Assembly: GCA_036378675.1 (NCBI GenBank) | Contig: DASUWA010000031.1 | Coordinates: 1 to 64,000, forward strand | From: Acidimicrobiales bacterium | Lineage (GTDB): Bacteria > Actinomycetota > Acidimicrobiia > Acidimicrobiales > Palsa-688 | DNA length: 64,000 bases | Direction: 5' to 3' | Shown: positions 6,039 through 19,242 of the stretch, in pieces | Layout: each line of letters begins with the position of its first letter | How positions within the stretch are numbered: the stretch's first letter is position 1 | Notes under the pieces: generated by a model | What the model was told of the DNA's origin: nothing | Databases searched by the model: none | What the model saw: the letters and a program-made list of their open reading frames with translations, nothing else | Program-made: the position numbers and the translations under genes

Positions 6039-6608
6039 TCAGGGAGAAGGCTGCCCGGCGTAGAAGATACGTGCTGTGATGTTCGCAGCCGAGTTCCCGA
6101 CGCCACTAATCGACACTCTGTCGATCACGACGGTACGAGACATCTTCGAAAGCGCTCCCACGAAAGCTTTGAGCTGATTGAAGGGGCCGATCGCGCTTAT
6201 CGTTAGAGTGACTGCCGGGGGTCCTGACGCCTGCGAGCCAGAACTCGAACTTGAACTCGGCCCCGATCCGCTAGCGGCCTGTGACGGTGTCAGTGTTGCG
6301 ATCGTAACCGCATTCTGAAGTGCCGCCTGGTGCATCAGATTCAGGGTTTGGTCGAGTTGCGGGTTGTCGGGTAACTGTTGTTGAAGTTGGGCGAACGCCG
6401 CATTGTCGGCTGGAATTTGCTTCACCAAGCCCTCTAGCTGCCCAACCTGCGTTTGAAGGTCACTTACCTTCTGGTCAGCTGCAGCGCGGGCCTTGTGGGC
6501 CGACTTGAGGCTTTTGGACTCCGGTGACCAAAGGAGGAAGAACCAAGCAACAACGAGGACGAGGGCGGCCCCTACCGCGATCACGGATATCTTTCGGTTG
6601 GCGGTCAT
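6039..6608 (-). CDS. pilO: Type IV pilus inner-membrane component PilO
   Basis: 189 residues with PilO architecture: short cytoplasmic N terminus, one transmembrane helix (about residues 8-28), a coiled-coil segment (about 35-65, KARAAADQKVSDLQTQVGQL), a Ser/Gly-rich linker and a C-terminal ferredoxin-like domain (AVTLTISAIGPFNQLKAFVG to the end). PilO pairs with PilN and links the PilM ring to the pilus channel. The start overlaps the stop of the pilM-pilN fusion by one base (TAATG), indicating co-translation. No PilP or PilQ gene is seen here, as expected for a cell with one membrane. Confidence 0.82.
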   Translation of the reverse strand: MTANRKISVIAVGAALVLVVAWFFLLWSPESKSLKSAHKARAAADQKVSDLQTQVGQLEGLVKQIPADNAAFAQLQQQLPDNPQLDQTLNLMHQAALQNAVTIATLTPSQAASGSGPSSSSSSGSQASGPPAVTLTISAIGPFNQLKAFVGALSKMSRTVVIDRVSISGVGNSAANITARIFYAGQPSP

Positions 6609-8263
6609 TACGGATTGACACCTCGATCTCTATGGCTTAGTGCATTTGGCGTGAGGCTGGTCGTCGACGCGAAAGTCACCGCACCACCATTGGTCGTTTC
6701 GGCGATTCCGGTCACCCATGTCCCCTGCACCGACGGATCCTTTTGCAAGCCGTCCAGCCAAGCAGCCGTGACGGGAAGTCCACCGTTTCCAGTCAGGGAT
6801 ACTCCAATAGATCCGGTACTCGATCCCGAGCTGGCGGAGCTCGTGGAGCCGCGAGTTCCCGTGAAACTTTCGATCTGGAGGCTTGCGGGCATCGAGTTCT
6901 GTATTCCGGATATGACACTGACCCAATCGACGTCACCCTGTAGCGCAGACTTGACCAGGTGAGCTCGAGCGGCCACCCTGGTATGGATAGCGGTCTCAAC
7001 CTGAAGTTGGGTGACCTTTGCTTGAAGCGAAGCTGCCTTCGCTTGAGCCTCGTGGACTTTCGACCTCTCGAGGTGCACTGCCACGGCTTCCGCGCCGCCG
7101 ACGAAAGCCAGGAGACCCGCGACACCGGCCACGCCCGCCGCTGCGAGAATCGCCAGACGGCGTGTGCGGCGGGCTTCGGCGACATCGCCCGGGAGAACTG
7201 ATAGACGGCGCCCCGGAGCGTCTGCTGTCCAAAGAGCAAGGCCCACCGCAGTAGCGCTAGTTGCACGCGCTCTGCGAAGGGCATCCTCGTCCAGTCCAAG
7301 ATCATCGAGAGTGACGACTGCAAAGGGATCGATTCGCCTGATGTCGACGTCAGTTGTTCCGGCAAGCTCCTCTGCGAGGCCCACCGTCATTGACGCGCCC
7401 CCTGTGATGAGCAAGCGATCGATGGGGCCTCCTACAGCTTGGCTGAGAAAGAAGTCCATGGTTGCTCGGACATCTTCGCCAAGGTCGCGCAGTTCCGAAC
7501 CCATGGCTTTGCGAGCTTGCGCGAGTTGAGGAGTTCCATTAGGGACAGCTCCTCGTTTGAGCGTCTCGGCGATCGCAGGTTCGACGTGCAGCGCCGAAGC
7601 GATTCCAGCCGTCAGCTTGCCTCCACCTATTGCGAGACTACGAATGAAACGAGGTATTCCCGCTTGGCGAACAGCGACCGTGGTCAGCTCAGCCCCGATC
7701 GAGACGATTGCTTCAACGCCTGAGTCTGCCGCGGGCGGGACTACCCGCATCAAGGCGAGCGGTGAAGCGTCAACTGCAACGGCTTCCAGTCCGGCTTGCT
7801 CAAGCGCCGCGAGGTGAGCCTTGAGCATCTCGCGATGGGCAGCAACGATGAGGATCCGCATGGTTGCACGGCCATCGTCGTCGGTGCTATCGCCACGCTC
7901 CAGGATCTGGAAGTCGAAATGAGCATCCTCCATGGGAATGGGAATGAGCTCCTGTGCGTCAAAGCGGAGCGAAGATCGTAGATCCTCTTCGTTCAATGCC
8001 GGAACATCTGCTTGGCGTACGATCAGCCGGTGACCTGAGACGCCCAATACGACTTTTCTCGAGGAGAAGTCGCCCGCGTCCCACAGCCGGCGGAGGGCTT
8101 CCGCCACCACCAGGGGATTGACGACCTCTCCATCGACTACGGCTCCAGACGGAAGCCCGACCTGGGCGTAGCGCCGCAGGCGGCAGTGGTGTCGCTCGAT
8201 CCGTATCTCGGCAGCTCGGACCGCGGATGAGCCGATGTCAAGGCCGATGCTGTTGGCTTCCAT
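6608..8263 (-). CDS. pilM: PilM-PilN fusion, T4P assembly platform protein
   Basis: 551 residues combining two normally separate proteins. Residues 1-350 are an actin-like PilM/FtsA-type ATPase: N-terminal GLDIGSSAVRAAEI phosphate-1 motif, the QELIPIPMEDAHFDF segment characteristic of PilM, and a GGASM motif late in the domain. Residues 352-551 are PilN-like: LSVLPGD (counterpart of the INLLP peptide that docks in PilM), a transmembrane helix (about 368-395), a coiled coil and a periplasm-type C-terminal domain. No stop or frameshift is visible at the junction near base 7216. The start has a GGGGA ribosome site. First gene of a pilMN-pilO-small gene operon. Confidence 0.88.
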   Translation of the reverse strand: MEANSIGLDIGSSAVRAAEIRIERHHCRLRRYAQVGLPSGAVVDGEVVNPLVVAEALRRLWDAGDFSSRKVVLGVSGHRLIVRQADVPALNEEDLRSSLRFDAQELIPIPMEDAHFDFQILERGDSTDDDGRATMRILIVAAHREMLKAHLAALEQAGLEAVAVDASPLALMRVVPPAADSGVEAIVSIGAELTTVAVRQAGIPRFIRSLAIGGGKLTAGIASALHVEPAIAETLKRGAVPNGTPQLAQARKAMGSELRDLGEDVRATMDFFLSQAVGGPIDRLLITGGASMTVGLAEELAGTTDVDIRRIDPFAVVTLDDLGLDEDALRRARATSATAVGLALWTADAPGRRLSVLPGDVAEARRTRRLAILAAAGVAGVAGLLAFVGGAEAVAVHLERSKVHEAQAKAASLQAKVTQLQVETAIHTRVAARAHLVKSALQGDVDWVSVISGIQNSMPASLQIESFTGTRGSTSSASSGSSTGSIGVSLTGNGGLPVTAAWLDGLQKDPSVQGTWVTGIAETTNGGAVTFASTTSLTPNALSHRDRGVNP

Positions 8264-8377
8264 CGTTTCCCCTACGCGCCCGTCGACTTGGTACTCACAG
8301 ATGGAGATATCGGCGCCTGCGGCCCGGGCTTTACCGAGACTCCGGAATATCTCGCGATTGGCCCGCCTATTCCGAGG

Positions 8378-9268: not shown

Positions 9269-9838
9269 TTAGAAGGCTTGCTCCCAGTTGCCAACTGACT
9301 GATGAGCAGTTGTGGTGCCTGGTCCGCCGCCCGGCGTAGCCGGGGTGGAGCATCCACCGGCGGCGTTCTTGCCGGTCTGGAAGTACTGGGTTCCGGCGGG
9401 AACGCTCGTCGCTGCGCCACCGGCTGGCGTGAAGGTGGCCGGCTGGTCAAGCGCGAAGATCGTATAGCAGTTGTTGTCCTTGCCGAGGCCGGTCAGGAAG
9501 ACGCCGTTGGTGTTGGCGTCGATGGCCACCAAAACGGTGTTCGGCTTGGGGGCCGCCGGCCAGGCGGTCTGCCAGTCGAGGTTCGACTCGATACCGGACA
9601 TGTCAGCCACCACCGCGTCGAATGCCTGGTTGTTCGTCCACTGGGTCTGCTCCGCGGTGAGAGCGTTACGCAGGTTGGACTGGGTCGCCCTGGCGTTGGC
9701 GCTGTTACGGGCCCCGAGGAACGTGGGGATAGCGATCGCCAACAGGATCGCGATGATCAGCACGACAACCATGAGTTCGATAAGGGTGAAGCCCTGCTCG
9801 TCGTCACGGCCGAGGCGCTGCTTGATGGATTCCAGCAT
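9269..9838 (-). CDS. pilA: Major type IV pilin
   Basis: 189-residue prepilin. The leader MLESIKQRLGRDDEQG is followed by FTLIELMVVVLIIAILLAIA, so cleavage after Gly16 leaves Phe1 with Glu5. The helix continues with FLGARNSANARATQSNLRNAL, then a short C-terminal globular domain with two Cys (NNCYT and GGCSTP) that may form the pilin disulfide loop. The ATG at 9836-9838 was chosen because the leader begins there, with AAAGG eight bases upstream; the frame extending further upstream runs through a riboswitch-like leader. A stand-alone, terminator-flanked position is usual for the most expressed pilin. Probably controlled by the c-di-GMP riboswitch at 9930-10005. Confidence 0.95.
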   Translation of the reverse strand: MLESIKQRLGRDDEQGFTLIELMVVVLIIAILLAIAIPTFLGARNSANARATQSNLRNALTAEQTQWTNNQAFDAVVADMSGIESNLDWQTAWPAAPKPNTVLVAIDANTNGVFLTGLGKDNNCYTIFALDQPATFTPAGGAATSVPAGTQYFQTGKNAAGGCSTPATPGGGPGTTTAHQSVGNWEQAF

Positions 9839-9929
9839 GTGTTTGCCTTTCGGGTTCGGTTCATGACAGCGAGCCTGCTTTTGAACCCCTGGCCCCTCCC
9901 CCCGGCAAAAACCCGGTTCAAGTGCTCCA
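9839..9929 (-). promoter_or_regulatory. Probable expression platform between riboswitch and pilA
   Basis: Between the aptamer and the start codon lie an inverted repeat TTGAACC (9921-9915) / GGTTCAA (9887-9881) and a segment GTTTTTGCC (9912-9904) whose TTTGCC can pair with GGCAAA at the ribosome site (9847-9842) or, alternatively, with GGCAAA of the aptamer (10002-9997). This suggests control at translation initiation, since no terminator with a T-tract is seen. The pairing scheme is inference. Confidence 0.45.
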
Positions 9930-10005
9930 GGCAGCCCGGCTGGCCCTCGTCCATGACGTCTGGCCCCGTGGCTTTGCGTCACCGCCTCTCGACGGCTTTG
10001 CCTTT
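9930..10005 (-). promoter_or_regulatory. Class I cyclic-di-GMP riboswitch (GEMM-I) in the pilA leader
   Basis: On the minus strand, about 92 nt before the pilA ATG, the sequence reads GGCAAAGCC (10002-9994), a CCGTC-GAGA-GGCGG stem with GNRA tetraloop, then the hallmark GACGCAAAGCC (9980-9970), a second hairpin, and a closing AGCCGGGCTGCC (9941-9930). Order, tetraloop and the GACGCAAAGCC core match the GEMM-I consensus; GGCA at the 5' end pairs with TGCC at the 3' end (P1). Members of this class commonly precede pilin and motility genes and bind c-di-GMP, a few bind cAMP-GMP. Whether it activates or represses pilA cannot be read with certainty. Confidence 0.9.
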
Positions 10006-10052
10006 TTCTCGAGCGCTGCTCGCACCCACAACATCGGCGCGTGAGGTATCAA

Positions 10053-10135
10053 CCTGAGAAGTTTCTGGGATCCGACCCTGAGAAATGTCTCAATCTGGGA
10101 TCCGACCCTGAGAAATCTCTCAATTTGGACTCGAC
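10053..10135. repeat. Three imperfect ~30-bp tandem repeats upstream of the pilA leader
   Basis: Units at 10053-10076 (short), 10077-10106 and 10107-10135 share CCTGAGAA...GGATCCGAC. The last two contain a TGAGA-N4-TCTCA inverted repeat. They lie between the NlpC/P60 gene and the riboswitch. They could be tandem operators for the pilA promoter, or the multiple terminal binding repeats of a decayed insertion sequence; no transposase remains nearby. The rest of the 314-bp gap (9839-10152) holds the riboswitch and platform. Confidence 0.75.
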
Positions 10136-11769: not shown

Positions 11770-13167
11770 TCATGCGGCCCGAACCGCCGTCACCAGCTTC
11801 GAGAGGGAGTCCTTGGCGTCCCCAAAGAGAAGCACGGTCTTCGGGTCGTAGAGAAGGGCGTTGTCGACCCCCGAGAACCCTGGTCGCATACTTCTCTTCA
11901 TGAACACGACATGCGCTGCCTCGTCGGCGTTCAGTATCGGCATTCCATATAGCGGGCTGCCTGGATCGTCGCGAGCGGCCGGGTTGACCACGTCGTTTGC
12001 GCCGACCACCAGCGCAACGTCCGTACCGGAGAACTTGGCGTTGGCCTCGTCGAGATCGTCGAGGTCTTCGTACGGGACGTTTGCCTCTGCAAGAAGTACG
12101 TTCATATGGCCTGGCATTCTTCCTGCCACCGGATGTATCGCGTACGAGACTTCGACCCCCCTGGTTTCGAGGGCCCTCGCGAGCTCTACGACCGTCTGCT
12201 GTGCCTGCGCGACAGCCAGTCCATATCCCGGCACGATGAGCACCCGTCTGGAGTAGGCCAAGAGGGTGGCGATGTCATCTGCGTCGGCTGACCGGACGCT
12301 TTGAGCCCCCTGTTCCCCTCCGAGCAACTCGGTTGACCCAGCGGTCGTCAAGCCACCGAGAAGGATGTTCGGCAGCGACCGCCCCATCGCGTCACTCATC
12401 ATCTTCGTTAGCAAAGCCCCAGAGGTGCCTACGAGGGTGCCCGCCACGACGAGGATCATGTTTCCCAAGGCGAAGCCATCCGCGGCCACCGCCAGTCCAG
12501 TCAGGGAGTTGAGCAGTGAGATTAGAACGGGTGTATCTGCACCTCCGACCGGAAGGCAGATGTCCACGCCCAAGGCCAGCGCAAACATCGCAAGAAGCAG
12601 AAGCCCTGCGACATGAGGATCGACTACCATCCAGATCCCCAGCGCAAGGAGCGCGACGAAGGGTGCCACATTCGCCTGGGGCTGCCCGGGAAACGTTATT
12701 GGGCGGCCGGTCAAGGTTCCCTGGAGCTTGGCAAACGCAATCAGGCTGCCGGATAACGACACGCACCCAATGACCAACCCGAACGTGATCTCGACCAGGT
12801 GCAAGTCACTCGGACTTGAAGACTGAGTCGAGAGAAAATGGACGACCGATACGAGCGCTGCCGCACCACCCCCAACTCCGTTGAAGATCGCCACAAGCTG
12901 GGGCATTGCGGTCATGTGGACCAGACGGGAGGCGGGAACGCCAATCAGCGTGCCGATCACCATGCCTATCGGAATGATGCCGTAGGGTCCGGCATGACTG
13001 TCGGCCAATGTGAGACCCACGGCGACGGTCATCCCGGCCACGCCGACCAAATTACCTAGCCGTGCCCTTCGAGGGGAACTGAGAGCCTTCAGCGCGACGA
13101 TGAAGCAGACCGCGGAGACGAGGTAACCCCCAACGAGACCGTTGTTGGCGAGAGTGGCGCCGATCAC
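11770..13167 (-). CDS. pntB: NAD(P) transhydrogenase beta subunit
   Basis: 465-residue membrane subunit of the proton-translocating transhydrogenase that transfers hydride between NAD(H) and NADP(H) using the proton gradient. The first ~270 residues contain multiple membrane segments; the C-terminal domain (dIII) has the NADP site: VPGYGLAVAQAQ, HPVAGRMPGHMNVLLAEA, and DVALVVGANDVVNPAA with GMPIL. Length matches the bacterial subunit (~460). Its start overlaps the pntA2 stop by four bases. The pnt operon is placed inside the pilus locus, between pilC and the NlpC/P60 gene. Confidence 0.96.
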   Translation of the reverse strand: MIGATLANNGLVGGYLVSAVCFIVALKALSSPRRARLGNLVGVAGMTVAVGLTLADSHAGPYGIIPIGMVIGTLIGVPASRLVHMTAMPQLVAIFNGVGGGAAALVSVVHFLSTQSSSPSDLHLVEITFGLVIGCVSLSGSLIAFAKLQGTLTGRPITFPGQPQANVAPFVALLALGIWMVVDPHVAGLLLLAMFALALGVDICLPVGGADTPVLISLLNSLTGLAVAADGFALGNMILVVAGTLVGTSGALLTKMMSDAMGRSLPNILLGGLTTAGSTELLGGEQGAQSVRSADADDIATLLAYSRRVLIVPGYGLAVAQAQQTVVELARALETRGVEVSYAIHPVAGRMPGHMNVLLAEANVPYEDLDDLDEANAKFSGTDVALVVGANDVVNPAARDDPGSPLYGMPILNADEAAHVVFMKRSMRPGFSGVDNALLYDPKTVLLFGDAKDSLSKLVTAVRAA

Positions 13168-13481
13168 TTCTCGCCCGATGTGCCCGGCTCGTGCTGTCGG
13201 TCACGACCTTTGAACATCTCAAGCATGCGGTCGGTGACGACCACCCCGCCGACTATGTTCAGCGTCGCAAGGATGACCGCCATTAGCGCGAGGAAGATCT
13301 GCAAACCACCGCGCGCCTCATTCGCGATAACCATCGTCCCCACGAGGATCACTCCGTGAATCGCGTTGCTGCCGGACATCAACGGAGTGTGCAGGATGCT
13401 CGGCACCTTTGATATCACTTCGTAACCGAGGAAGGCGGCGAGGACGAACACGACGAGAAGGTCGAGCCCGGTGTCGATCAT
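13164..13481 (-). CDS. pntA2: NAD(P) transhydrogenase alpha-2 (membrane) subunit
   Basis: 105-residue hydrophobic protein corresponding to the C-terminal membrane part of PntA, separate in many bacteria. It shows LLVVFVLAAFLGYEVISKVP, then TPLMSGSNAIHGVILVGT, a strongly conserved PntA2 stretch, and three to four membrane segments. It overlaps pntA1 and pntB by four bases each, fitting equimolar expression of the three-subunit complex. Confidence 0.95.
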   Translation of the reverse strand: MIDTGLDLLVVFVLAAFLGYEVISKVPSILHTPLMSGSNAIHGVILVGTMVIANEARGGLQIFLALMAVILATLNIVGGVVVTDRMLEMFKGRDRQHEPGTSGEK

Positions 13482-14635
13482 TCTGCAGTCCCTTCCATTG
13501 CCGCCCTGGTCGGCTCGTGCTGCACTCTTCCCGCTCCGGTCAGTCGCATTCCGACGAGAACCTCATCGTCGGATTCACTGACGATGTCACCGTCGCGAAT
13601 CAATAGAGCAAGGAAGTTCGACACGTTCCGCGAGTAGAGCGCACTTGATGAAGTTGCAACGTCCGATGCCAAGTTCCCCGCACCAATCACTAACACTCCG
13701 TTGTGTTCCACTTCCTCGCCGTCACGCGTCAGTTCGCAGTTACCACCTGATGCGGCGGCCATATCTACTATGACCGCTCCTTGGCGCATTCGCTCGACGG
13801 TCGCTCTGGTAATGAGCCGTGGTGCAGGCCTACCAGGGACTGCCGCGGTTGTTATCACTGCGTCCGACTCGGAGACCCTGATAGCCACTAGCTCTTGCTG
13901 TCGGGCCAGAAACTCCTGGCTCTGCTCAGCTGCGTACCCGCCAGTGCCTTGAGCGGCGTCGAGTTCTAACTGCACGAATCTGGCACCCAGGCTACGCACC
14001 TCTTCGGCGGCCTCGGGCCGGATGTCGTAACCGGACACTGACGCCCCGAGCCTTCGCGCAGTGGCGATGGCCTGCAGGCCTGCCACCCCCGCGCCCAGCA
14101 CGAGCACCTTCGCGGGCGGAACGGTGCCTGCAGCGGTCATTAGAATTGGAAACATCCGCCCAAGGCGCCTAGCCGCAAAAATCGCAGCCTCGTACCCCGC
14201 GGCGCTCGCCTGTGAGCTGAGGGCGTCGACCGACTGGGCGCGGCTGATCCTTGGTACGAGATCGAAGGAGAAGGTTGTTATGCCCCGATCCCGGAGCCGC
14301 CCGACGATTCTCAAGTGAGTGGCGGGCGGGAGGAAGCAAAGCAGCGTGGAGTGCTGCGGCAGGTTGGCCACCTCCGACTCACTCGGCGGCCTAACCTTCA
14401 CAAGCACACCAGCTGCCTTGTCCAGAGCTCCCGGGAGGGACGCGACAGCCGCGCCGGCAAGTTCGTATTCCGAGTCTGGGTGTCCGGCTGGATCTCCGGC
14501 CCCGCTCTCGACAACCACCTCGAGGCCCAGGTTGGCCAGCCGGGTCAAGTCCGCTGGTACGAGGGCAACCCTCCGTTCGCCAGGCTCGGTCTCCCTGAGT
14601 ACGACGAGTCTCGTCACCGCATCGAATCCTGCCAT
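13478..14635 (-). CDS. pntA1: NAD(P) transhydrogenase alpha-1 (NAD-binding) subunit
   Basis: 385-residue soluble dI domain binding NAD(H), related to alanine dehydrogenase. Recognised by RETEPGERRVALVPADLTRL at the N terminus, the Rossmann motif VLGAGVAGLQAIATARRLGA, YDIRPEAAEEV, and PGRPAPRLITRATVERMRQG. It stops at the dI boundary, the membrane helices being encoded by the next gene. First gene of pntA1-pntA2-pntB; 39 bp separate it from the pilC stop, so it might be co-transcribed with the upstream motor genes. Confidence 0.95.
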   Translation of the reverse strand: MAGFDAVTRLVVLRETEPGERRVALVPADLTRLANLGLEVVVESGAGDPAGHPDSEYELAGAAVASLPGALDKAAGVLVKVRPPSESEVANLPQHSTLLCFLPPATHLRIVGRLRDRGITTFSFDLVPRISRAQSVDALSSQASAAGYEAAIFAARRLGRMFPILMTAAGTVPPAKVLVLGAGVAGLQAIATARRLGASVSGYDIRPEAAEEVRSLGARFVQLELDAAQGTGGYAAEQSQEFLARQQELVAIRVSESDAVITTAAVPGRPAPRLITRATVERMRQGAVIVDMAAASGGNCELTRDGEEVEHNGVLVIGAGNLASDVATSSSALYSRNVSNFLALLIRDGDIVSESDDEVLVGMRLTGAGRVQHEPTRAAMEGTAE

Positions 14636-14674: not shown

Positions 14675-15904
14675 TTAACCGTTATTTCCGACGAGTTTGA
14701 TGATGTCGAACATGGGCAGGTAGAGAGACACGACCATCGCGCCGACAGCGCCACCCAGAACAACAATCAGGAGAGGCTCCAGAAGCGACGTGAGCGCCTC
14801 CACGGTCCGCGCTACCTCCTGCTCGTAGAAGGTCGCAATCTTTCGCAGAAGAGTGTCCAACGCGCCGGTCTCCTCTCCGACTGCCATCATCTGCGTAACC
14901 ATCGGAGGGAACACCGGATGCTCTTCCAGAGGCCGTGTCATCGCCTCGCCCTTTTTGGCTCCCTCTGCGATGGCGCGAACCCCATCGGCGACGACAACGT
15001 TCCCGACGGTATCGGCGGTGATCTCGAGAGACTCGAGCACCGGTACACCCGATGAAAGCAATGTCGCGAGTGTGCTGGAGAATCTCGTCATGGCAGTTTT
15101 TCGGACCAATCCGCCGAAGATCGGCACCCGGAGAAGCACGCGGTCGCGCGCCTGACGACCGGTAGCCGTGCGCACCCAACGACGATATGCATAAACAACT
15201 CCCGCGACTGTGAGGATGACGAAGGGGAAAGCATGCACGAAGATGTTCGAGATGCCGACAAGCATCCGGGTCGGGAGGGGAAGCGTTCCCTTGAGAGAGT
15301 CGTACATCTTTTTGAAGATCGGCACAATGAACAAGAGCATCGCAGTAAGGATGCAACAGACGAGAGCGAGGACCATCGCCGGGTAGGCCAACGCCGAACG
15401 AATCTTCCCACGAAGCTCGACCTGCTTCTCAATAGTGGTCGCCAATTCGTTCAGGGTGATGTCAAGGTTGCCGCCTGTTTCACCCGCGCGAACCATCGCA
15501 ACATACAGCCGGTTGAATTGTTTCGGGTGTCTGGACATCGCCTGCGAGAGGGAGGATCCGGACTGGATGTCCGCTCGGAGCGAATCGATTACGGTCGAGA
15601 AGTACTGGCTCTCGGTTTGCACCACCAGAATCGACAACGCCCGGAGCAAGGTCAAGCCCGAGTTGATCATGGTGGAAAACTGCCGGCTAAAGATTGCGAT
15701 GTCTTTTAGCTTTACCCGATTGGAAAACCCCGGGATCTGCAAGTCTTTCTTGACGCCGGCGCCCGCCTTCTTGTCGATCGCGATGGGCACGTAGCCCATC
15801 TGGCGGAGGCGGTTTGCTACAAGCGCAGTGTTATCGGCGTCGATCGTGCCTGAGAGGACCTTCCCGGACCTGTCCCGAACCTTGTATGCGTACGTTGTGG
15901 ACAT
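14675..15904 (-). CDS. pilC: Type IV pilus inner-membrane platform protein
   Basis: 409-residue GspF/PilC family protein. The N-terminal cytoplasmic part (MSTTYAYKVRDRSGKVLSGT) is followed by two T2SF repeats, the first with FSRQFSTMINSGLTLLRAL and the second with RFSSTLATLLSSGVPVLESL, and three transmembrane helices (around residues 170-195, 220-240 and 375-400). It couples the PilB/PilT motors to pilin assembly. Its start shares one base with the stop of the PilT-type gene, so motor and platform are translated together. Confidence 0.96.
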   Translation of the reverse strand: MSTTYAYKVRDRSGKVLSGTIDADNTALVANRLRQMGYVPIAIDKKAGAGVKKDLQIPGFSNRVKLKDIAIFSRQFSTMINSGLTLLRALSILVVQTESQYFSTVIDSLRADIQSGSSLSQAMSRHPKQFNRLYVAMVRAGETGGNLDITLNELATTIEKQVELRGKIRSALAYPAMVLALVCCILTAMLLFIVPIFKKMYDSLKGTLPLPTRMLVGISNIFVHAFPFVILTVAGVVYAYRRWVRTATGRQARDRVLLRVPIFGGLVRKTAMTRFSSTLATLLSSGVPVLESLEITADTVGNVVVADGVRAIAEGAKKGEAMTRPLEEHPVFPPMVTQMMAVGEETGALDTLLRKIATFYEQEVARTVEALTSLLEPLLIVVLGGAVGAMVVSLYLPMFDIIKLVGNNG

Positions 15905-17463
15905 CAGCGAGCTCCTGCGACTAGCCGGCGTAGTTCGTCCTCGTGGTGGCAGCGCTCTAGGGCTACCTCGAGAGAGATTTTTGAGCCGCGGACCAAATCG
16001 GCGAGGGATTGGTCCATGGTCTGCATCCCGAACTTCCCACCGCCCTGCATGGCGCTGTAGATCTGGTGAACTTTGCCCTCACGAATCATGTTCCGGATGG
16101 CGGGCGTGGCAATGAGAACTTCGCAAGCCACCCCTCGACCCTTGCCACCGAGCCGTGGAAGGAGCTGCTGACAGACCACCGCCTGCAGTGCCGCCGCCAG
16201 CTGGACACGAATCTGTTGCTGCTGGTGGGCCGGGAAGACGTCGATCACGCGGTCAATCGACTGCGGTGCGTCCTGGGTGTGAAGGGTGCCGAACACCAGG
16301 TGGCCAGTTTCTGCCGCCGTAAGGGCGGTGGAGATGGTTTCGAGGTCCCGCATTTCGCCCACCAGAATCACGTCCGGGTCCTGCCGAAGGACGTGCTTGA
16401 GGGCGGCTGCGAACGATTTGGTGTCTTCGCCAACCTCTCGCTGGTTAACAACCGATCGCTTGCTGGTGTGAACGAACTCGATCGGATCCTCGACGGTCAT
16501 GATGTGGTCGGGTCGGGTCGTATTGACGATGTCAACTACAGACGCCAACGTGGTCGACTTGCCGGAACCAGTTGGCCCACAAACTAGAACGAGACCTCGC
16601 GGAAGGTTGGCCAGGTCACCGACGACCGCGGGGACCCCTAGCTTGTCCAGCGGGACGATCTTGAACGGAATAGCACGGAGGACCGCACCAACCGAGTCCT
16701 TCTGGAGGAAGACGTTGAGCCGGAACCGACCTGCGTTTGGCACCGAATGAGAGGTGTCGAGCTCGAGTTCTTCCTCGAACTTCTCACGCTGGCGTTGGGC
16801 GAGGATCCCGTAAACGAGGCGCCTTGTTTCCGATGGGGTTAGTACGTCGTAGCCCTCCATCGGTCGCAAATGCCCATCAACGCGGATGCACGGAGGCAGA
16901 CCGGCGCTTATGTGAAGGTCGGAGGCGCCCGAGGCCACCATTTCGGCAAGCAACACGTTCAGATGAAGCTCCGCTGGAGGGGGCTCCTCCCCCACCGCGA
17001 CATCTGGCTTGGCGGCGGCCGGCGCATCATCGACGTTGTACAGAACTTCTATCGCGAGAGAAATATCCGCCGCGGCCGCGAGTACGGCCTCGACCGTCCA
17101 GCCGGTCTCACGGGATATCTGATCTATTGCCGACTGGTCGGTCGGGTTCTCCATCGCGACACGTAGCAGCGTGGTGTTCATTCCCACCGCGACGGCCCGT
17201 AAGCGCTGAGCCATCGCCAGTGGAAGCATGCCAGCGACCATGCTTGGGATGGGGTCACGGTCAGGATCCCACACCGGAATGCCGAGGTGGGCGCCGATGG
17301 CGGCGATCAGGTCACGCTCACCGACGAGGCCCTCAGAGGCGAGGAGCTTTGTAAGAGGAATGCCGGTCTCCGCCTCACGGACCAGCGACTCCTCGAGAAC
17401 ATCGCGGGAGAGGACCTTGCGGGATACGAGGAACTCCCCCACCACCCTGGATGCGGCGATCAT
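15904..17463 (-). CDS. pilT: PilT-type retraction ATPase with N-terminal MshEN-like domain
   Basis: 519 residues against about 350 for usual PilT. Residues ~170-519 form a PilT ATPase: Walker A GPTGSGKST, Asp box, Walker B ILVGEMRDLET, His box AETGHLVFGTLHT, and AIRNMIREGK, the PilT hallmark (AIRNLIRE) that argues for retraction rather than extension. Residues ~1-150 look like the GspE/PilB N-terminal domain (VVGEFLVSRKVLSRDVLEES, then LLASEGLVGERDLIAAIGAH), a fold that binds c-di-GMP in MshE. The neighbouring pilB lies 51 bp upstream. A second, ordinary pilT is not in the window. An accessory PilT/PilU-like role is possible. Confidence 0.88.
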   Translation of the reverse strand: MIAASRVVGEFLVSRKVLSRDVLEESLVREAETGIPLTKLLASEGLVGERDLIAAIGAHLGIPVWDPDRDPIPSMVAGMLPLAMAQRLRAVAVGMNTTLLRVAMENPTDQSAIDQISRETGWTVEAVLAAAADISLAIEVLYNVDDAPAAAKPDVAVGEEPPPAELHLNVLLAEMVASGASDLHISAGLPPCIRVDGHLRPMEGYDVLTPSETRRLVYGILAQRQREKFEEELELDTSHSVPNAGRFRLNVFLQKDSVGAVLRAIPFKIVPLDKLGVPAVVGDLANLPRGLVLVCGPTGSGKSTTLASVVDIVNTTRPDHIMTVEDPIEFVHTSKRSVVNQREVGEDTKSFAAALKHVLRQDPDVILVGEMRDLETISTALTAAETGHLVFGTLHTQDAPQSIDRVIDVFPAHQQQQIRVQLAAALQAVVCQQLLPRLGGKGRGVACEVLIATPAIRNMIREGKVHQIYSAMQGGGKFGMQTMDQSLADLVRGSKISLEVALERCHHEDELRRLVAGAR

Positions 17464-17514: not shown

Positions 17515-19242
17515 TCAGGCGACGACCCGGAGGATCTCTTCGATCGAAGTGCCGCCCTGGCTCACGGCCACTAAACCGGCCTGCCGAAGGGTGAGCATCC
17601 CCTGGCCAATAGCGAGCTTGCGGATGTCATCGGAATGCCCTCGTTCGACGATCAGCCGTTCGACTTCCTCGGAGATTGGGAGGACCTCGTGAACCGCGAA
17701 GCGTCCGTGAAAACCGGTTCCGCCACAGGCTCCGCAACCGTGAGACCGAAAGATCTCGGTCGACTTGTCGATCTCCCCCAGGCGCTCGACGTCCCATCCA
17801 ACGGACACGAGTTCTGACATCTCAGGCTTGTACGCCTTCTTGCACTTGTCGCAGAGCCGGCGAGCCAGGCGCTGAGCCACTACACAATCGAGCGCGCTGC
17901 CCACCAGGAACGGCTCGACGCCCATCTCGATCAAACGTGATGGAGTGGATGCCGCATCGTTGGTGTGGAGCGTGGAGAGGACGAGGTGCCCGGTCAGAGC
18001 GGCCTCGATACCGATAATCGCTGTCTCGCGGTCGCGGATCTCCCCGACGAGAACGATGTCGGGGTCCGAACGCAGAATGCTTCTCAGTGCGGCCGCAAAC
18101 GTGAGGCCGGCCTTGGAGTTCACCTGCACCTGGTTGATACCGGGGAGCTGGTATTCGACAGGATCCTCGACCGTGATGACGTTCTTCGACTCGTCGTTCA
18201 GAATGTTCAGCGTCGCGTAGAGGGTCGTGGATTTCCCTGACCCGGTGGGCCCCGTCACGAGAATCGTCCCGTACGGCTTTCGATAGGACTCCTCGTATCG
18301 GGACATGTTCTCGGGGAGAAATCCGAGGTCCGACAGTCTGAGCAATGCGGTTGACTTGTCGAGCACGCGCATGACGACCTTCTCGCCGTGCACGGTGGGA
18401 AGCGTCGCTACGCGTAAGTCGACGTGGCGTCCGTCGATCATCGTGGTGATCCGCCCGTCTTGCGGGATCCGTCGCTCGGCGATGTTGATGTCAGCCATCA
18501 CCTTGAGGCGACTGACGATCCCGGATTGGATGCGTTTGGGAGGGCGCATCACCTCGTGGAGCACACCGTCGATGCGGTACCTGACACGAACATCGTCCTC
18601 GCCGGGCTCTATGTGGATGTCCGAGGCCCGGTCATTGATCGCCTGGGTGACCAAGAGGTTGACCAACTTGACGATCGGCGAGTCCTCGGTGATCTCACGG
18701 ACCCTGGAAAGGTCTGCCTCACCCTCGAAGGTGCTCGCCGCCTCTGCGCTGACGTCCTCGGCTTCGCTGTCGACTCTGTGGAAGCGACCTATGGCGGCCA
18801 CGACCGAGCCCGCCGTTGCCACGGCGATGCGGATCTCTGCACCGGTGACCGTACGGATGTCGTCGACAGCAAAAACGTTCGACGGGTCGGCCATCGCCAC
18901 GATCAGCCGGCCCTCGTACCACCCGATCGGAAGAGCCATGTAGCGCCTGGCCATCGAGTCGCCGATCAACCGGGCCGCGGCAGCGTCGACCGGATACTCG
19001 GTGAGGTCGACGAACTCGAGCTTCAGGTGCCTGGCGAGCGTGGCGACCAGATCGGTCTCGCTTACCAGCGAATCGTCTATGAGGATCCTTGCAAGATCCT
19101 GGCCACGCTCAGTCCGTACAGAAAGTGCCTTCTGGCACGCCTCCTCCGTGAGCAGGCCCGCGTCGACGAGGAGCTTGCCGAGAAGCTCATCGTCTGTGGG
19201 GGCGGCAGGTTCCACCCCCAGGGAAGGGGCAGCCATCGTCAC
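17515..19242 (-). CDS. pilB: Type IV pilus extension ATPase
   Basis: 575-residue GspE/PilB family motor powering pilus assembly. An N-terminal MshEN-like domain (LLGKLLVDAGLLTEEACQKA, then ILIDDSLVSETDLVATLARH) precedes the ATPase with GPTGSGKSTTLYATL, an Asp box, Walker B IVLVGEIRDRETA and His box LTGHLVLSTLHTND. Two Cys pairs (CDKCKK and CGACGG, around residues 474-510) form the zinc site of PilB/GspE. It follows the DUF4388 gene by 13 bp and precedes the PilT-type gene. Normal length for the family. Confidence 0.96.
   Translation of the reverse strand: MTMAAPSLGVEPAAPTDDELLGKLLVDAGLLTEEACQKALSVRTERGQDLARILIDDSLVSETDLVATLARHLKLEFVDLTEYPVDAAAARLIGDSMARRYMALPIGWYEGRLIVAMADPSNVFAVDDIRTVTGAEIRIAVATAGSVVAAIGRFHRVDSEAEDVSAEAASTFEGEADLSRVREITEDSPIVKLVNLLVTQAINDRASDIHIEPGEDDVRVRYRIDGVLHEVMRPPKRIQSGIVSRLKVMADINIAERRIPQDGRITTMIDGRHVDLRVATLPTVHGEKVVMRVLDKSTALLRLSDLGFLPENMSRYEESYRKPYGTILVTGPTGSGKSTTLYATLNILNDESKNVITVEDPVEYQLPGINQVQVNSKAGLTFAAALRSILRSDPDIVLVGEIRDRETAIIGIEAALTGHLVLSTLHTNDAASTPSRLIEMGVEPFLVGSALDCVVAQRLARRLCDKCKKAYKPEMSELVSVGWDVERLGEIDKSTEIFRSHGCGACGGTGFHGRFAVHEVLPISEEVERLIVERGHSDDIRKLAIGQGMLTLRQAGLVAVSQGGTSIEEILRVVA

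Follow-up and report, generated by a model that had tools for sequence, protein, structure and literature searches.

It appears likely, at a probability that we put at about 0.68, that c-di-GMP acts twice on pilA, the major pilin gene of this Acidimicrobiales bacterium: once at a WhiG-type promoter and once more through a canonical c-di-GMP class I aptamer in the leader of the message. Under this scenario, transcription of pilA would start at a sigma28/WhiG-type promoter, and the resulting message would open with the aptamer. At the promoter step, RsiG loaded with c-di-GMP would hold WhiG back, and at the leader step, binding of c-di-GMP would close the P1 helix of the aptamer and so change the access to the ribosome binding site. 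Should the leader be turned ON by the ligand, then, combined with repression via RsiG at high c-di-GMP, pilin synthesis would be highest at intermediate levels of c-di-GMP. For one second messenger to act on the same message both through an anti-sigma factor and through a riboswitch would be unusual, and such a circuit could give a sharp or band-limited response. We infer ligand binding, the use of the promoter by WhiG and the translational control of pilA from the sequence. The relevant features of the window, by which we mean the entire 64-kb stretch of DNA analyzed, are the following.

10032..10057, minus strand: putative sigma28/WhiG-type promoter, TCAG-N15-GCCGATG (-35, -10), with 1 mismatch to TMAR-N15-GCCGATA, conserved in place
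10018..10023, minus strand: 5' strand (GCGAGC) of the putative P0 helix, near the predicted transcript start at ~10026 (consensus fold of 21 leaders with RNAalifold)
9926..10012, minus strand: c-di-GMP class I aptamer (P1-P2-P3), RF03167 67.4 bits, RF01051 72 bits
10002, minus strand: equivalent of G20, a ligand contact in Vc2 (cmscan alignment; role from PMC4744006)
9975, minus strand: equivalent of A47, which is A here and G in the RF03167 consensus (cmscan alignment; role from PMC4744006)
9931, minus strand: equivalent of C92 (cmscan alignment; role from PMC4744006)
9869..9874, minus strand: 3' strand (GCTCGC) of the putative P0 helix, from the same consensus of 21 leaders, in the expression platform ~30 nt before the start codon
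9846..9850, minus strand: Shine-Dalgarno-like AAAGG, 7 nt before the pilA ATG, from the sequence
9269..9838, minus strand: pilA, type IV prepilin of 189 aa (MLESIKQRLGRDDEQG/FTLIELMVV...), PF07963 38.1 bits (cut-off 21.2), TIGR02532 32.1 bits (cut-off 16.3)
8308..8333, minus strand: perfect TAAA-N15-GCCGATA site (0 mismatches) in the gap between pilD and pilM, just upstream of pilM
6608..8263, minus strand: pilM, PF11104 162.9 bits, with the ATG at 8263

The riboswitch in the pilA leader is convincing as a predicted c-di-GMP class I aptamer, and this assignment is supported by two covariance models; the riboswitch class itself is already known. The Rfam model RF03167 (c-di-GMP-I-GGC) matches positions 9926-10011 of the minus strand along its full length (1-80; 67.4 bits, E 8.9e-14, cut-off 59), and in the cmscan search of the 64-kb window against Rfam, this is the sole site with a match above any gathering cut-off. 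The model of the ordinary c-di-GMP-I riboswitches, RF01051, scores 72 bits at 9927-10012 (cut-off 35). Both models detect the same single copy in the 4.1-Mb genome, 14 control genomes contain zero copies of the c-di-GMP-I aptamer, and a 35-nt core pattern that allows up to 3 mismatches has a chance expectation of 0.00. A GEMM-I riboswitch had been proposed by a sequence-only reading of the window, and the passing scores of both models bear this proposal out. The elements that it named are all present on the minus strand, namely, GGCAAAGCC at 10002-9994, a GAGA (GNRA) tetraloop, GACGCAAAGCC at 9980-9970 and GCCGGGCTGCC ending at 9930. Its coordinates, 9930-10005, mark the right site and slightly truncate the aptamer, the P1 of which reaches to ~10014 and ~9924. 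Its distance of ~92 nt to the start codon is correct from its own end point and becomes 87 nt when measured from the model-based end of the aptamer to the pilA ATG (9838-9836). The identification of the downstream gene as a type IV major pilin also stands, with PF07963 and TIGR02532 both above cut-off and with pilD, pilM and pilO nearby. Absent from that reading were the sigma28/WhiG-type promoter, the outer helix P0 and the GGC variant as the top label in Rfam.

So what could drive the transcription of a message that opens with this aptamer? No sigma70-type promoter was found before it. In the relatives, a motif consisting of CTCAAG or CTAAAG, 14-16 nt and G[CG]CGATA is located ~20 nt upstream of the aptamer, and when the leaders are aligned on the -35 alone, a CCGA-type -10 emerges. 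The flagellar/WhiG promoter consensus is TAAA and GCCGATAA (PMC8325347); the pilM site matches this consensus in full, and the pilA site is near-consensus and conserved. We scored the pattern T[AC]A[AG]-N14-16-G[CG]CGATA with a threshold of at least 10 of the 11 positions, which the imperfect pilA motif of the window reaches with 10/11 matches. The motif is present in 13/15 pilin leaders (shuffles expect 0.08) and in 23/30 c-di-GMP-I matches from many families across the phylum, counts that do not represent independent events given that related sequences share ancestry, as well as in 25 of the 68 other c-di-GMP-I matches of the order (shuffles expect 0.5). Because the pattern was devised after the pilin leaders had been viewed, these 68 matches and the 30 from the phylum provide the fairer test. 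Upstream of cobalamin riboswitches from the same order, the motif was found in 0/27 cases; the enrichment relative to this set yields Fisher p values, which ignore shared ancestry, of 1.4e-6 for the order and 4e-10 for the phylum. Genome-wide, TMAR-N15-GCCGATA with at most 1 mismatch is barely enriched (168 sites vs 136 for the reversed control), so that an isolated site means little and the case for the promoter rests on conservation and position. Immediately upstream of the pilA promoter, at 10064-10123, there are two tandem 30-nt copies that are 97% alike; a third, partial copy (TTCTCAGG, minus strand) includes the -35 box, as if DNA flanking the promoter had been duplicated.

Both protein components of the proposed promoter step are encoded in the genome. 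WhiG (G000:C7:138751-139422, between dprA-like and rpsB-like genes) scores 272.8 bits with TIGR02479, as the sole FliA/WhiG-type sigma factor above the cut-off, and in the PDB it is matched best by the sigma factor in the entries of the RsiG-WhiG complex (6pfv/6pfj; E 1.5e-97), ahead of FliA (5e-48). RsiG, a protein of 175 residues (G000:C41:27514-28041; L149 1315-1842), was found via a search for the motif E(X)3S(X)2R(X)3[Q/H](X)3D, of which the first instance, ETGLSYLRRIVQGRLD, is exact and the second, EREISGLRRSVFDVLD, has F where Q or H is expected; PF22802 matches the protein in two stretches (75.1 bits), and the comparison with chain T of 6pfj gives an E of 2.6e-14. In the sample of the order, with phylogeny not corrected for, RsiG is present in 32/34 riboswitch genomes vs 118/214 others; the two riboswitch genomes that lack it are 70% and 85% complete.

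The most serious competitor of the double-control scenario holds that only the RNA senses c-di-GMP, as an ordinary c-di-GMP-I riboswitch, and that the sigma28-like promoter is coincidental or belongs to another sigma factor. The aptamer alone is certain at the sequence level, the genome encodes several more proteins of the sigma-70 family, and chance alone makes the bare motif common across the genome; however, such an explanation leaves aside the constant position of the motif in front of c-di-GMP-I aptamers in many families and its absence before cobalamin riboswitches, and we consider it unlikely, while taking it more seriously than any other alternative. With regard to the double control of pilA, a broader proposition suggests itself, namely that sigma28/WhiG-type promoters generally drive the transcription of c-di-GMP-I messages in Actinomycetota, with the signal gating first the sigma factor (via RsiG) and then the leader RNA. 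We advance this generalization tentatively, at somewhat less than even odds; if it is true, surface proteins are governed by a two-lock or band-pass circuit, of which pilA would be the type case. The association between promoter and riboswitch seems to be a standing feature in Actinomycetota, and as such would be more interesting than the aptamer alone. In literature searches that covered few subscription papers, the pairing of a c-di-GMP-I riboswitch with a WhiG-type promoter was undescribed. The association also suggests that the regulon could be listed by a joint search for WhiG-type sites and c-di-GMP-I aptamers.

As for the ligand, the nucleotides that contact it in Vc2 are G20, A47 and C92 (PMC4744006; also cited on this question, PMC9049102). 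All three are canonical in the window RNA, and c-di-GMP is therefore the expected ligand of the pilA aptamer, as opposed to cAMP-GMP or the ligand of the GGC variant. The organism very probably makes c-di-GMP, judging from the 20 GGDEF and 15 EAL domain matches in its genome. The top-ranking Rfam label might nevertheless be taken to imply a true GGC variant that senses a ligand other than c-di-GMP, given that RF03167 gives a lower E-value and wins the clan competition in cmscan. The GGC in that name presumably denotes G20, G47 and C92, and on this reading, the window RNA is canonical because it carries A rather than G at the A47 position (GACGC-A-AA vs GACGC-G-AA in the RF03167 consensus); thus, the G that, from the consensus together with the family name, we infer to define the variant is missing. 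The same A is found in 82/82 scorable aptamers of the order (all matches by RF03167, window included, apart from one further match, L147, that was unscorable), and in bits, RF01051 outscores RF03167. A GGC variant is, accordingly, a very improbable identity for this RNA, and the c-di-GMP-I-GGC label in this group is not to be taken as a sign of a different ligand.

The arrangement extends beyond the window. Orthologous pilins of the family and the order also have this aptamer in front of them, at a similar distance (L034, L035, L037, L038, L039, L042, L004, L006, L010, L014, L016, L020, L093, L098, L099, L101, L105, L106, L111 and L112). Tandem pilin genes are seen in L014, L095, L112 (G007:C51) and L020 (G066), and G007 possesses three successive aptamer-pilin units in tandem, ~0.8 kb apart, each with its own aptamer. 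Elsewhere in the order (L097, L100, L103, L104, L113-L145), many other c-di-GMP-I aptamers precede genes for secreted proteins that look CAP/SCP-domain-like (SHNP motif) or otherwise exported, and several lineages harbor 4-7 c-di-GMP-I aptamers per genome.

How the leader would transmit the signal can be stated with less assurance. No intrinsic terminator was found in the pilA leader on the minus strand, which makes translation or Rho the likely step, and the leader probably acts on translation. The outer helix P0 is moderately supported as a prediction: 85.5% of the cells are paired and two-sided changes occur at 4/8 pairs, a pair count for which the strands were picked by eye and in which 18-29 of 500 shuffles attain the main measures. 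In single-sequence folds, P0 is seldom formed. When the aptamer was forced to form in the 21 leaders, no consistent change in Shine-Dalgarno access was found (mean 0.43 to 0.47; 6 up, 1 down, 14 flat), and the whole-leader fold of the window alone was no better than shuffles (z -0.39), in a method that leaves tertiary contacts and the ligand outside. The 5' strand of P1 is among several segments of the leader with the best match to the Shine-Dalgarno region, and this observation weakly suggests, with odds slightly better than even, that the ligand switches the leader ON. A mutually exclusive swap of the P0 and P1 strands, based on GAGC/GCUC repeats in the window, was dropped as it is not kept in L010, and the UUUGCC anti-Shine-Dalgarno of the window lacks conservation among the relatives.

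The lack of a clear switching structure in the folding models, along with the presence of a single copy in the genome, could be construed as pointing to a decayed aptamer that no longer has a regulatory function. This is highly implausible in view of the full-length alignment in which all contacts are intact and no non-standard pairs are flagged, and of the retention of the position, the promoter and the outer helix in the relatives. Variants that sense cAMP-GMP (GEMM-Ib) carry A at position 20. With G at this position (10002), a cAMP-GMP sensor is the least credible of all the readings, even if the scaffold is identical and c-AMP-GMP-sensing c-di-GMP-I variants are known (PMC7266159), and the GEMM-Ib and GGC ligands are both rejected on contact residues.

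Compared with known systems, the pilA leader shares with Vc2/Vc1 of V. cholerae (RF01051) the secondary structure, the core sequence, G20/A47/C92 and the location before a surface-structure gene, but differs in being GC-rich and actinobacterial, in its putative outer P0, in having no intrinsic terminator and in its pairing with a sigma28/WhiG-type promoter. To RF03167, its highest-ranking Rfam model, it is very similar in peripheral sequence, without the consensus G at the A47 position. In Rubrobacter, type IV pili are under WhiG-RsiG control, as backed by mapped transcript starts (PMC8325347). The genome analyzed here likewise encodes WhiG and RsiG and has WhiG-type sites before pilA and pilM; in contrast to Rubrobacter, its RsiG is of the twin-motif kind and its sites are predicted from sequence, and a riboswitch is unmentioned in the Rubrobacter paper (PMC8325347). 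Double control of pilA would thus extend the Rubrobacter WhiG-RsiG switch of type IV pili to another actinobacterial order. The merRNA/FliA attack-phase program of Bdellovibrio (PMC3627812) similarly combines a c-di-GMP riboswitch RNA with a global sigma28 program in one organism; however, the gene downstream of merRNA is not conserved, and the list of FliA sites does not include one for this RNA (PMC3627812).

In the window, pilA belongs to a cluster with pilB, a PilT-like ATPase, pilC, pilD, pilM, pilO and minor pilins. The two pilus ATPases, PilB-like (17515-19242, minus strand) and PilT-like (15904-17463, minus strand), each contain an MshEN domain (67.3 and 52.8 bits, respectively). In MshE, this domain binds c-di-GMP, and the MshEN domains of the pilus ATPases might possibly represent a third level of control by c-di-GMP. 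Embedded in the pilus cluster between pilC and pilA, at 11770-14635 on the minus strand, are three genes resembling those of proton-translocating NAD(P) transhydrogenase.
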